Below, piece after piece: positions 4,401 to 40,320 of a stretch of DNA of 40,438 nt. The notes beneath the pieces were generated by a model. The model saw only the letters and a program-made list of their open reading frames with translations, made no database searches and had not been told where the DNA came from. The position numbers and the translations under genes are program-made. This stretch comes from Gemmatimonadota bacterium (GTDB taxonomy: Bacteria > Latescibacterota > UBA2968), in NCBI GenBank assembly GCA_009838845.1, contig VXRD01000084.1, forward strand, positions 1 through 40,438, read 5' to 3'. The first letter of the stretch is position 1; every line of letters begins with the position of its first letter.

Positions 4401-4482
4401 TTGCCCCTCCAATCGAGTGAAAAATCAGCAGTGTCTTAGTGTTCTACCTAAATAATACACTAACACGCATCAATTGTCAAAC

Positions 4483-4526
4483 GAAAAAATAAAAAACTCC
4501 TCAAAACCCGAAGGCTCTGAGGAGTT
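4483..4526 (-). terminator. Intrinsic terminator for the gene at 4644-6011
   Basis: A 9-bp stem AACTCCTCA/TGAGGAGTT (4495-4503 with 4518-4526), followed on the minus strand by a T-rich run (4494-4483). It lies downstream of the minus-strand gene that ends at 4644. Confidence 0.75.
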
Positions 4527-36443: not shown

Positions 36444-36551
36444 CGATAGCGTCCATATATTTCTGTAAAAAGTAAAAAAATCACCGTAGCTCCGAGAAAA
36501 ATCTTAAGATAGGGGTGAGAAGTAATATAAACCCTAACCCTGGAGGCTACG

Positions 36552-36725
36552 ATGACCCACCCCAAAGAGATTAAAATTACTGCGCCAGAGCAATTTGCAC
36601 TTTTGAATGACCCTGATTTTCTTAATCAGGCCGTGACCCGCTTCCTCTAGCAGTTTATGGAAAATGTGGAGATCAGGTCTCCTCTCCCCGATGCAGGGAG
36701 GGATCCAATATATAAACAAGAATAA
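36552..36725 (+). pseudogene. IS256-type (mutator) transposase N-terminal remnant
   Basis: Starts at ATG 36552 behind GGAGG with MTHPKEIKITAPEQFALLND, and continues PDFLNQAVTRFL. This is the characteristic start of IS256-family transposases, where QQF would follow; here the first Gln codon is TAG (36648). After QFMEN the frame no longer resembles the family and ends at 36723. Only the left end of an insertion sequence remains; possible terminal-repeat sequence lies at about 36455-36490. Confidence 0.6.
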
Positions 36726-36730
36726 ATATC

Positions 36731-37108
36731 ATGCACAAATATCTATTGTCCACCCCGATGATTCTGCTTTTGCTCATTGGGTCCGCCTCTGCACAAACGG
36801 TTAATTTTTCTCTACGGGGCCTCGACGGCAATACATATAGTGCTTCTGACTATCGCGGCAAAGTGCTCGTGCTTGCGGTCATCGGTTGGAACTGACCGAC
36901 CTGCAGGGCCGCGGGTTCGGCCCTCGAAACATTATGGCAAAATTATAACGATAACCCCAATGTTGCCATGCTGGGTCTTGATAGCTGGAATGGTAGTCGT
37001 GCTCAGGTTGAGGGTTTTCGCGCGAATGGGGGCATCACCTTAACGCGAGTGGTTCTGCTCCGTCCACGTATGATCGTCTCGTTGTTGTTGGCACCGATGG
37101 GACTGTGA
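36731..37108 (+). CDS. Secreted thioredoxin-like selenoprotein candidate (UxxC)
   Basis: ATG 36731 opens a signal peptide (MHKYLLSTPMILLLLIGSAS, then AQ) and a TlpA/redoxin fold: VNFSLRGLDGNTYSASDYRG, KVLVLAVIGWN. Codon 55 (36893-36895) is TGA exactly where the first redox Cys is expected, followed by Pro-Thr-Cys (U55-P-T-C58). The same frame continues as normal redoxin (SALETLWQNY, VAMLGLDSWNGS, VEGFRANGG). A bSECIS-like hairpin follows the TGA. Read with Sec, this frame ends at 37106-37108, but after about residue 103 it leaves the family; the proper continuation (STYDRLVVVGTDGTVKWVSPG) is in the frame of the next entry. So it has a frameshift or small deletion near 37028-37042. It would act as a periplasmic thiol-selenol oxidoreductase. 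The alternative is a decaying gene with two lesions. Confidence 0.68.
36905..36924 (+). promoter_or_regulatory. Bacterial SECIS-like hairpin
   Basis: A perfect 7-bp GC-rich stem AGGGCCG/CGGCCCT (36905-36911 with 36918-36924) with loop CGGGTT. The loop begins 16 bases after the TGA and has G at its second position, which agrees with the general bacterial SECIS rule (loop 16-37 bases downstream, G early in the loop). Confidence 0.62.
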
Positions 37109-38289
37109 AATGGGTATCCCCAGGTATAATTTCAAACGCCCTTTCTACTGCGGAAGCCAAGGTTAAAGAACTGTTGAAGAAAGAACCCGACCCACAGGTG
37201 ACAATTACGGCGGATTCTGAATCCATCACCGAAGGGGTATCTGCGAGATTCACGATCAGAGCGAACCTTCTACCAACCACTGCATTGAGAGTGGGGGTGA
37301 GTGTCAGTGAAACTGGCAATGTCATCAGCTCATCGCCCTCGCAAGTCACTATAAATGCCGATAATACGACCGCTACACTGACAGTGAATACCATTGATGA
37401 TCAAGCATATGAGCCACATAGCTACGTGACAGCACAACTCCAACAAGGAACGGGCTATACAATCGGCACACCACACTATGCCCGCATCACTGTCAATGAC
37501 AATGATGAACCAGCGGATCCACCAGCAGATCCACCAGCAGATCCACCAGCAGATCCACCACCGCCACCACCGCCACCACCGCCACCACCATCAATACCGA
37601 CCGAACCTCAAGTTCCTGATCGCACTGTCATCCGAGATACTCTAAATATCGGGGGTATTCCAAGGACAGATCTATTCTCCCTTGACCTCAATGATAGACC
37701 GGGAAATCAGGCTGCTGACACTCTTAATATCGCCCCAGGACAAGATTTTTCCATCCAGATTTACTGTCACGATACTCAAAAGGGAGACAGGATTCGCACC
37801 CTGATCGAATACGACCCATCCCAACTCATCTTCAAGAGGTTTAAGGCCGATGGCATTACGATAGCCTCTTCCTATTCAAAAAGTCAGGAAAAGGTTGGGC
37901 AGGTGACAGTCACTGCCTATATCTTAAATCAAAGTTCGGGATTTTTGGGGAATACCCTCTTCATGACCACGGATACTTTCTCTGGATCTCAAATAAAAAT
38001 CATACAAGCTGAATTCACGATCAGCGACCCATTCAGTGACCAAATATCTCGTATCTCCTACGCCTCAGTCGAGGAAACCGCCGAAATACATCTGATGAAA
38101 GAACCAACTGAGGTAGAAAAATCCGACTTTAATGGCGATGGCGTCATTGACACCCTTGACTTCATACTGTTTAGTAATGCGTGGGGGACGACCGATCCAA
38201 AATATGACCTTGACGGAGATGGCACTGTCAATTACGGTGATTTTGTGATATTCGCGCGGAATTTTGGCAAAACAGTCGATGGAGGATAA
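37105..38289 (+). CDS. Redoxin tail plus Calx-beta, cohesin-like and dockerin-like modules
   Basis: Begins within the end of the redoxin domain (the frame is open from 36994; GTG at 37105 is only the first possible start) and is most likely the 3' part of the 36731 gene. Order: redoxin end (WVSPGII ... VKELLKK), Calx-beta-like domain (about 33-133; ITEGVSARFTIRANL, ATLTVNTIDDQAYE), ADPP repeats and polyproline (about 137-162), cohesin-like beta domain (about 180-330; TLIEYDPSQLIFKRF). Two dockerin repeats close it: DFNGDGVIDTLDFILFSNAWG and DLDGDGTVNYGDFVIFARNFG, each with a full calcium loop. Without its own signal peptide it needs the upstream part for export. Confidence 0.7.
   Translation: MKWVSPGIISNALSTAEAKVKELLKKEPDPQVTITADSESITEGVSARFTIRANLLPTTALRVGVSVSETGNVISSSPSQVTINADNTTATLTVNTIDDQAYEPHSYVTAQLQQGTGYTIGTPHYARITVNDNDEPADPPADPPADPPADPPPPPPPPPPPPSIPTEPQVPDRTVIRDTLNIGGIPRTDLFSLDLNDRPGNQAADTLNIAPGQDFSIQIYCHDTQKGDRIRTLIEYDPSQLIFKRFKADGITIASSYSKSQEKVGQVTVTAYILNQSSGFLGNTLFMTTDTFSGSQIKIIQAEFTISDPFSDQISRISYASVEETAEIHLMKEPTEVEKSDFNGDGVIDTLDFILFSNAWGTTDPKYDLDGDGTVNYGDFVIFARNFGKTVDGG
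37513..37590 (+). repeat. ADPP minisatellite and proline tract
   Basis: Four 12-base units (GCRGATCCACCA, coding Ala-Asp-Pro-Pro) at 37513-37560, then three 9-base units CCGCCACCA plus one more CCA coding ten prolines. It forms an extended linker between the Calx-beta and cohesin-like domains and is likely variable in length. Confidence 0.85.
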
Positions 38290-38406
38290 CGGAAGCATTT
38301 CGCTCAAAAAATTGCTATCATGCACTATCCGCACCGCATCCACGCCATCAATGCGACTCCTGTCCAGTTGAAACCCCCTTTACGTCCTCATCAACATCAC
38401 AGCGCA

Positions 38407-38442
38407 AAAAGAGTCCGCAAGCACCTCGCGGACTCTTTTTTA
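38407..38442 (+). terminator. Intrinsic terminator
   Basis: Stem AGAGTCCGC/GCGGACTCT (38410-38418 with 38428-38436), A-run before, TTTT then ATT after. It ends the dockerin gene transcript just before the methyltransferase gene. Confidence 0.85.
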
Positions 38443-38453
38443 TTGGAGAAAAA

Positions 38454-39329
38454 ATGAACGATGGCATCATCGGCTCGGGCGGTATGGCGAGTCATAATAA
38501 AAGAGGAAAACATGTCTTGAGCACCGCTGCCAAACGCGACTATCTGTTGGGAACAAATGACGAGGAACTGCACCGCCTGCAAGCGCAACACAATACATGG
38601 CAGGCCGAAACCACAGACTTGTGGGATCGCGCCACCTTTCGCGCTGGGCAAACGATTCTCGACCTCGGTTGTGGCCCGGGCTTTACGAGTTTAGAACTGG
38701 GCGAGCGCGTGGGCGCAGGTGGGCGCGTTCTGGCCGTGGATGGATCAAAGAAATTCGCGGATTTTCTCCGACACCGCGCTGCATCAGCCAGTATGACGCA
38801 AATTGAGGTCGTCGTAGCGGATGTCCGCACCCTTGACCTGCCGGTCGCTTCTATAGACGCTGTGTTCGCTCGTTGGCTACTCTGCTTCATAGAAGAGCCA
38901 CAAAAGGTGATTGAGCAGGTAGCCCGCACGCTTAAAAGAGGTGGACACCTGCTCGTTATGGATTACTGCACTTATGGGGCATTTGTCGCCCAGATTCAAT
39001 ACCCCCACTTGCGGCGCGTGCTGCAGGCAGTACACAGGAGCTTCGGCGATGGACTCGAAATCGGCGATAAGCTGCCCCAACTCATGGAACGTTGTGGCCT
39101 GGAGGTCGTGGAAGTCATTCCTATCGGCGGCATTGCCCGCCCAGGCAACCGCATCTGGTGCTGGATAGAAGATTTCTTGCGCATGTATTTGCCTGAACTC
39201 GTGGCACGCGGCGCATTGCGCGAAGAAGATTGCGCGGCGCATTGGGAAGAATGGCAAACAAATGCCCGCGATCCACAAGCCACTATTTCATCGCCATCAA
39301 TGGTCGGCGTTATTGGCGTCAAGATCTAA
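38454..39329 (+). CDS. Class I SAM-dependent methyltransferase with a captured N-terminus
   Basis: A 291-residue methyltransferase with motif I ILDLGCGPGFTSLEL (about 68-82), VLAVDGSKKF, VVVADVRTLDLP and ARWLLCF, then GGHLLVMDY. The family covers small-molecule and quinone methylases; substrate unknown. ATG 38454 follows GGAGA. The first 15 codons (MNDGIIGSGGMASH) match the start of the next gene (MNDIRIGIIGSGGMASRH) at DNA level apart from a 9-base deletion, and are foreign to a methyltransferase; the native part seems to begin near LSTAAKRDYLLG (TTG 38517). Confidence 0.85.
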   Translation: MNDGIIGSGGMASHNKRGKHVLSTAAKRDYLLGTNDEELHRLQAQHNTWQAETTDLWDRATFRAGQTILDLGCGPGFTSLELGERVGAGGRVLAVDGSKKFADFLRHRAASASMTQIEVVVADVRTLDLPVASIDAVFARWLLCFIEEPQKVIEQVARTLKRGGHLLVMDYCTYGAFVAQIQYPHLRRVLQAVHRSFGDGLEIGDKLPQLMERCGLEVVEVIPIGGIARPGNRIWCWIEDFLRMYLPELVARGALREEDCAAHWEEWQTNARDPQATISSPSMVGVIGVKI

Positions 39330-39342
39330 GTTTGGAGGAAAA

Positions 39343-40320
39343 ATGAACGACATCCGCATTGGCATAATCGGCTCAGGCGGTATGGCGAGTCGCCATGCCC
39401 AGCACTTTTCCCGAACAGATGGCTTTGAACTCATTGCCATTGCTGCGCGAAACATAGAAACCGGGCCAGCACTCGCCAACAAGCACGGTATAGATTACTT
39501 ACCGACCTATCGGGAAATACTCAAACGCGACGACATCGACGCCATCGCAATATGCACCTACAACGACACCCACAGTGAAATCGCCCTTGCCGCGCTCGAT
39601 GCAAACAAACACGTTTTTACCGAATATCCCGCGGCGCGCAATATCGATGAAGCGCAACAATTGCTTTCCAGAATCGACCACTCATCTCGCGTCCTCCGCG
39701 TGGGCCACAACGAAGTACTCTCGCCATCTCACCGGGCACTCAAACGACAAACAGCCCAAACGGGAAATCTCATAACCGCACTATTCACCCGCCTCACCCC
39801 GGGCCGAGGTCAACGTCCTGAAATCCTCTTTAATATCTCCATATCGGGTCCACCAGCCCTCTTTTTTGTCTATAACATCTATCCACTCGTCGATTGTTTT
39901 GGTCCCGCCACCTGGGTTGAAGCCGCAGCCCACTACGAAAATCTGCGCGATGACAGCACCTACGATAGCTTTGCAAATTCTGTCACAGTCGGTTTTGAAA
40001 ACGGCGGTATTGGGCAATGGAACTGGGCTGGTGGCATCGAAATTTCCGATGCCGAAGAATATCGCCGTATTGTCATGACAGACGGGACACTCATCAACAG
40101 AGGCGATGGCTGGCACCTCTCGACAAAATCAAGCGAACACGACCTGCCCGCAGCCGAACCATCGGACGTCACAATCCAAACCCAATTCCTCAAAGACATC
40201 CACAATGGCAACTGGCAAACCGACGCCCGCACAGCCATCAACGCCGCGCTGATCGGCCTCGTAGCCGAACGATCAATAGAAGAAAACCGCCGCGTGCCCC
40301 TCTCAGAACTTCTACAGTGA
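39343..40320 (+). CDS. Gfo/Idh/MocA family oxidoreductase, EKP motif altered
   Basis: The start is ATG 39343 after GGAGG (upstream in-frame codons overlap the methyltransferase gene). A 325-residue protein with Rossmann loop IGIIGSGGMASRHA and the second-strand basic residue in AARN. The usual EKP motif is EYP (E94-Y95-P96), so the conserved Lys that contacts cofactor and substrate is missing. The C-terminal beta-sheet domain is present (VTVGFENGGIGQWNWAGG). It may bind cofactor with altered chemistry or be a non-redox member. It lies 13 bases after the methyltransferase gene. Confidence 0.88.
   Translation: MNDIRIGIIGSGGMASRHAQHFSRTDGFELIAIAARNIETGPALANKHGIDYLPTYREILKRDDIDAIAICTYNDTHSEIALAALDANKHVFTEYPAARNIDEAQQLLSRIDHSSRVLRVGHNEVLSPSHRALKRQTAQTGNLITALFTRLTPGRGQRPEILFNISISGPPALFFVYNIYPLVDCFGPATWVEAAAHYENLRDDSTYDSFANSVTVGFENGGIGQWNWAGGIEISDAEEYRRIVMTDGTLINRGDGWHLSTKSSEHDLPAAEPSDVTIQTQFLKDIHNGNWQTDARTAINAALIGLVAERSIEENRRVPLSELLQ

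Follow-up and report, generated by a model that had tools for sequence, protein, structure and literature searches.

A methyltransferase gene at the start of a Gfo/Idh/MocA oxidoreductase gene, a probable scar with the original start left upstream

The window analyzed here is a stretch of 40,438 nucleotides from the genome designated G000. Near its end, a methyltransferase gene is located between the hairpin that follows a 2-oxoacid:acceptor oxidoreductase operon and a complete gene for a Gfo/Idh/MocA oxidoreductase, here called gfo (Table 1). The region 38396–38470, which includes the hairpin, folds at −20.5 kcal/mol with a z of −2.95. The gfo product scores 92.1 bits with Pfam GFO_IDH_MocA (cut-off 24). 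The methyltransferase scores 73 bits with Pfam Methyltransf_11 (curated cut-off 21.2), and the likeness to UbiE/COQ5-like class I SAM-dependent methyltransferases is in the domain at residues 69–168 of the 291-residue frame. The product is thus a predicted class I SAM-dependent methyltransferase, and no NCBIfam model reaches its cut-off for it (best 25 of 43 models). Between the gfo stub and the complete gfo gene (38494–39330), the methyltransferase gene is the sole plus-strand frame of at least 100 aa, and the antisense strand contains three frames of 108–133 aa. Nucleotides 38494–38498 are assigned to neither the stub nor the leader of the methyltransferase. The leader itself belongs to the methyltransferase, because it is seen in G007 (and its last part in G002) without any stub.

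Table 1. Coordinates of the features at the gfo locus (positions in the window unless a locus is named).
Feature	Position	Strand	Remarks
Intrinsic-terminator-like hairpin and T run	38406..38441	+	Behind the 2-oxoacid oxidoreductase operon
gfo 5' stub	38443..38493	+	SD-like TTGGAG, 13 codons including ATG, 9-base deletion; E 9e-10
In-frame read-through from stub to methyltransferase	38454..38516	+	21 codons; further in-frame ATG at 38484
Own leader of the methyltransferase	38499..38516	+	SD-like AGAGG; alignment with G007, last part with G002
Predicted class I SAM-dependent methyltransferase	38517..39329	+	Inherited frame of 270 aa from TTG; Pfam Methyltransf_11 3.2e-20
Complete gfo (Gfo/Idh/MocA oxidoreductase)	39331..40320	+	ATG at 39343, SD-like TTTGGAGG; Pfam GFO_IDH_MocA 5.2e-26
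Pre-gfo hairpins	38406–38441; L092 9805–9835; L129 about 4455–4485		

The initial annotation claimed that the 5' end of the methyltransferase gene copies the start of gfo, including the GSGGMAS segment, with a 9-base in-frame deletion. The alignment bears this out. Nucleotides 38443–38493 align with 39332–39391, with 48 of the 51 aligned bases identical and a single 9-base gap that keeps the frame. The copy contains the SD-like TTGGAG, the ATG (38454 and 39343, respectively) and the codons for GIIGSGGMAS; as had also been claimed, the ribosome site was copied as well. The extent first given for the copy, 38454–38510, covers a real copy, although it is slightly long at its end, where the match stops at 38493, and it omits the ribosome site.

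The copy reaches a local score of 76, whereas 2000 base shuffles average 13.2 and reach at most 25. When the whole genome of G000 was searched at the DNA level with 38430–38520 (E up to 0.1), only the query itself and 39332–39391 were found (E 9e-10), despite at least 71 matches of the gfo protein in the same genome (best 71 of 109 candidates). Gfo/Idh proteins commonly begin with a glycine-rich Rossmann segment, and a resemblance of such starts, by chance or throughout the family, could imitate a copy. This reading has a negligible probability, as it is contradicted by the match in the untranslated ribosome site, by the scores far above the shuffles and by the uniqueness of the DNA match. The peptide is not a natural N-terminus of the methyltransferase family, either: the 10 genomes without a stub, among the 14 with a match to the methyltransferase, match the 291-residue query from residue 15 or later. 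An assembly artefact is unlikely, since the order stub, methyltransferase and gfo recurs in four separate genomes, and the related arrangement in G007 is found within a genome of one contig.

The locus was compared among 11 genomes of the genus, G000 included, with G014 from another genus of the same family as the outgroup. In all 11, the stretch includes a CBS gene followed by PFO alpha and PFO beta, as well as an orthologue of gfo; the orthologues in all 10 other genomes are at 76–95%. Three states are observed. In the first, PFO beta is followed by a hairpin and gfo, as in G004, G005, G006, G009 and the most distant genome, G008; the methyltransferase was not found in these five at E ≤ 1e-45. 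In G014 the order is PFO alpha, PFO beta, gfo, and inspection by eye places a hairpin-like sequence directly before gfo. The oxidoreductase gene without a preceding methyltransferase, which the initial annotation proposed to look for in relatives, is therefore present in five of the 11 genomes and in G014. As it is found in the outgroups, this state is taken as the older one. In the second state (G000, G003, G010 and G001), the hairpin is followed by the gfo stub, the methyltransferase and the whole gfo gene, the ATG of which is 13 bases past the stop codon of the methyltransferase. In the third state (G007 and G002), the hairpin is followed by the methyltransferase, a 3' tail of gfo, about 7 kb of other DNA, a second hairpin and the whole gfo gene. 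The gfo 5' stub is absent from G007 and G002.

The hairpin element of G000 also precedes gfo in G004, G005, G006 and G009, and the second-placed gfo in G007 and G002. The hairpin before gfo in G008 is of another sequence. A hairpin directly before the ribosome site of gfo is kept in position with a different sequence in G008 (folded) and G014 (by eye). With such a hairpin there is almost no space for a promoter, so transcription of gfo may pass through an attenuator.

At the junction, the match to the resident gene exceeds chance, as judged by shuffles, in G000, G003 and G010. The stub of G001 is by itself within chance (score 19, shuffle maximum 23.5), and its assignment is based on position and the gap, not on the score. 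The stubs of G000, G003 and G010 and the decayed one of G001 share the same 9-base gap, suggesting a single event.

Which of the two gfo starts is the original can be judged from their surroundings. The stub is behind the hairpin, which is the place of gfo in the genomes without the methyltransferase, and its SD and ATG in G000 and G003 have the form of the gfo starts of G004 and G009. The whole gfo gene in the second state has no hairpin before it; TTTGGAGG opens it one base behind the stop codon of the methyltransferase. Based on these features, the upstream stub is taken to be the start that gfo originally had, still in its place, and the downstream complete start to be the added copy. In the gfo tree, the four stub-bearing genomes group together by their whole gfo genes (support 0.855). 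An insertion into the start of the oxidoreductase gene, one of the two origins first proposed for the chimera, is thus supported, with the original and the added start in this order.

The other proposed origin was a local duplication. The gfo start is indeed duplicated, but the apparent gfo 3' tail in two relatives makes it probable that more than a simple duplication took place. The sequence CTCAGAACTTCTGTA is the end of gfo, and in G007 and G002 it starts at base 17, taking the first base of the methyltransferase stop codon as base 1. Within the 19.9-kb locus of G007, the tail, with 15 exact bases, is the longest match to the end of gfo; none of 5000 base shuffles gave a match as long. In G002 the tail matches its own gfo over 12 bases (one of 5000 shuffles was as long) and the gfo of G007 over 15 bases. 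The DNA after the tail in G007 is the DNA that trails gfo in G000 and G005. Since four genomes retain a 5' remnant and two a 3' remnant, one of two gfo copies may have had its body exchanged for the methyltransferase.

The 7-kb module between the methyltransferase and gfo in G007 (L083 6507–13700) contains a frame with a sub-threshold match to AAA_18, a DDE group 1 transposase and a 1170-residue TPR/STAND NTPase. DNA matching this module, minus the portion with the transposase, follows gfo in G005, and matching DNA also begins at the end of the present window. The longest shared part of the module is 97.5% (G002) and 96.2% (G005) identical to that of G007, compared with 93.3% and 93.0% for the flank.

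In the tree of the flanking sequences, G007, with the methyltransferase, is sister to G009, without it (support 1.000); the other inner branches are weak. The methyltransferase is thus patchily distributed on this tree, and either several losses or exchange between species must be added to any account of the locus. Precise excision between the stub and gfo, which would have recreated genomes without the methyltransferase, is not favoured: all five such genomes of the genus contain the 9 bases that are absent from the stub.

At E ≤ 1e-45, the methyltransferase has a match in 14 of 64 genomes of the phylum. Its identity is 91–96% within the genus, 78–79% in five of 11 genomes of genus g13 in family f4 (a sixth contains a 53% relative), 46% in G045 and 38% in G014, which belongs to the same family as G000. 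The identity of rpoB is 95.5–96.9% for two genomes of the genus, 69–70% for three g13 genomes and 83% for G014, and for PFO alpha the corresponding values are 98%, 62–63% and 83%. The methyltransferase is thus closer to f4 than rpoB is, yet far more distant from G014, and on these comparisons it was probably acquired laterally. A scan of further genome contigs found four loci, namely those of G002, G010 and G007 and a 22% match in a Chloroflexi record. No relative was found in the viral collection searched.

The initial annotation described the product as having a chimeric N-terminus. An in-frame extension does exist here, but the start inherited by the methyltransferase is different. In all five g13 relatives at 78–79%, the open frame is 272 long and 270 residues match. 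The pattern of a GTG start was recognized in two of the five f4 loci (L131 and L105), where a TAA is located two codons upstream of the GTG. At the position equivalent to 38517, GTG is seen in G003, G010, G001, G007 and G002, and TTG in G000. The GTG of the relatives and the frames of 272 residues identify TTG 38517 as the inherited start. Among the four stub-bearing genomes, the stub ATG begins an uninterrupted frame into the methyltransferase in two, G000 and G003, so the fused N-terminus is not conserved. In G010 a TAG is located within the fused frame, and the sole remaining upstream start is the inner ATG, 11 codons upstream. In G001 there is no stub ATG in frame, and a short frame, recognized by eye, ends in a TGA that overlaps the GTG. 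Thus, the extension is absent, interrupted or out of frame in four of the six genomes of the genus with the methyltransferase. Unless peptides show otherwise, the chimeric N-terminus is a lineage-specific accident, a fortuitous in-frame extension.

Most probably, the locus is a scar of an event by which the methyltransferase came to sit at the start of gfo, with the original start left upstream and a complete gfo gene downstream. The methyltransferase, probably of lateral origin, would have arrived at the start of gfo directly behind the 2-oxoacid:acceptor oxidoreductase operon and its hairpin. Upstream, the old start (SD, ATG and 12 more codons) would have stayed as the stub, while the complete gfo gene now follows the methyltransferase. 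It can be supposed that gfo was once present twice and that most of one copy was replaced by the methyltransferase, which would now be read from the old position of gfo. Ribosomes starting at the stub ATG would make a 291-residue fusion in G000 and G003; in G000, such initiation would add 21 residues to the methyltransferase with its inherited start at TTG 38517.

Several observations speak against this reading or fit others as well. One insertion step, in which the methyltransferase entered gfo near codon 17 with the duplication of about 60 target bases and without any second full gfo, explains the four stub-bearing genomes equally well. There, the copied segment starts immediately past the T run and reaches codon 17, and the whole gfo starts 13 bases downstream of the stop codon of the methyltransferase. 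By itself such a step accounts for neither the gfo 3' tail nor the second pre-gfo hairpin of G007 and G002, and it is considered the less probable course, though one of real weight. The G001 stub alone is within chance, and the G002 tail has only 12 bases against its own gfo. It is very improbable that a small element integrated site-specifically at the start of gfo, regenerating gfo and displacing a fragment. As described in PMC4383910, tRNA/tmRNA genomic islands split and regenerate their target gene, and they share with the present locus the mark of a displaced fragment on one side and a complete target on the other. Compared with such islands, the target here is a protein gene, the insert is a single gene without an evident integrase in the window, and the fragment carries a deletion. 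The plus strand of 38494–39330 contains no other frame of at least 100 aa, the stub differs from the target by the 9-base gap, and in G007 and G002 a 7-kb module also intervenes, which in G007 holds the DDE transposase. No integrase was named among the three scanned frames of the G007 module.

It is also conceivable, at a probability well short of even, that the 291-residue fusion has a function in this lineage, where it would be translated from the captured start of gfo while the own start of the methyltransferase decays. Over 91 bases, G000 and G003 differ at only three positions, 38513, 38515 and 38517, all on the inherited start and including the change from GTG to TTG in G000. The inherited start may therefore matter less in G000, which would fit the use of the upstream ATG and would count against the preferred reading. 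A functional fusion would agree with the SD and ATG of the stub, which match those of gfo in G004 and G009 exactly, and with the 21-codon frame, open in G000 and G003. It is opposed by the failure of the extension in four of the six genomes of the genus with the gene and by its absence from the f4 relatives. In the structure model the extension contains the blocks of the lowest pLDDT (28 and 27), although the model is poor overall (mean 53.7) and uninformative on the extension.

A tentative and rather doubtful reading is a capture of a start site in progress, in which an incoming gene takes over the translation start of a resident gene. The frame read from the stub contains a TAG in G010 and is out of register in G001, and the stub is absent from G007 and G002, yet the frame is open in G000 and G003. 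These states might, with the same reservation, be placed in a series: the fused frame (G000 and G003), the frame with TAG (G010), the short frame ending on the inherited GTG (G001) and no stub (G007 and G002). It is likewise possible, if unlikely, that the inherited start is weakening in G000, where 21 residues of gfo and old-leader sequence would be joining the methyltransferase. The series of states in close relatives is a usable case for the question of whether captured start sites are kept or erased.

Gene remnants beside horizontally acquired genes are, as a general kind, scars of insertion or replacement. The present locus shares with them a truncated resident gene piece beside an incoming gene and an insert-free locus in relatives. 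It differs in that the remnant is the start of gfo with its ribosome site, which in two of the genomes happens to read in frame into the incoming gene. It is thus an instructive scar of an already known kind, and a small, clear example of the way in which a laterally acquired gene can come under the expression signals of a resident gene. Longest-frame calling would give the methyltransferase a false or new N-terminus (291 versus 270 residues). Among the titles and the beginnings of the abstracts in a literature search, nothing bore on this locus.

The region upstream of the hairpin also varies. In G010 (L087), a run of N and an apparent repeat of the PFO beta end are located before the hairpin, upstream of the stub, and probably represent a scaffolding gap. 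In G000, about 1.9 kb (~36446–38390) is inserted between PFO beta and the hairpin, and a frame in it (37105–38289) matches the dockerin type I domain. Nine of the 10 other genomes of the genus do not have this insert, and G010 has the run of N there. Parts of 36446–38390 match elsewhere in the genome of G000 at 67–78%.
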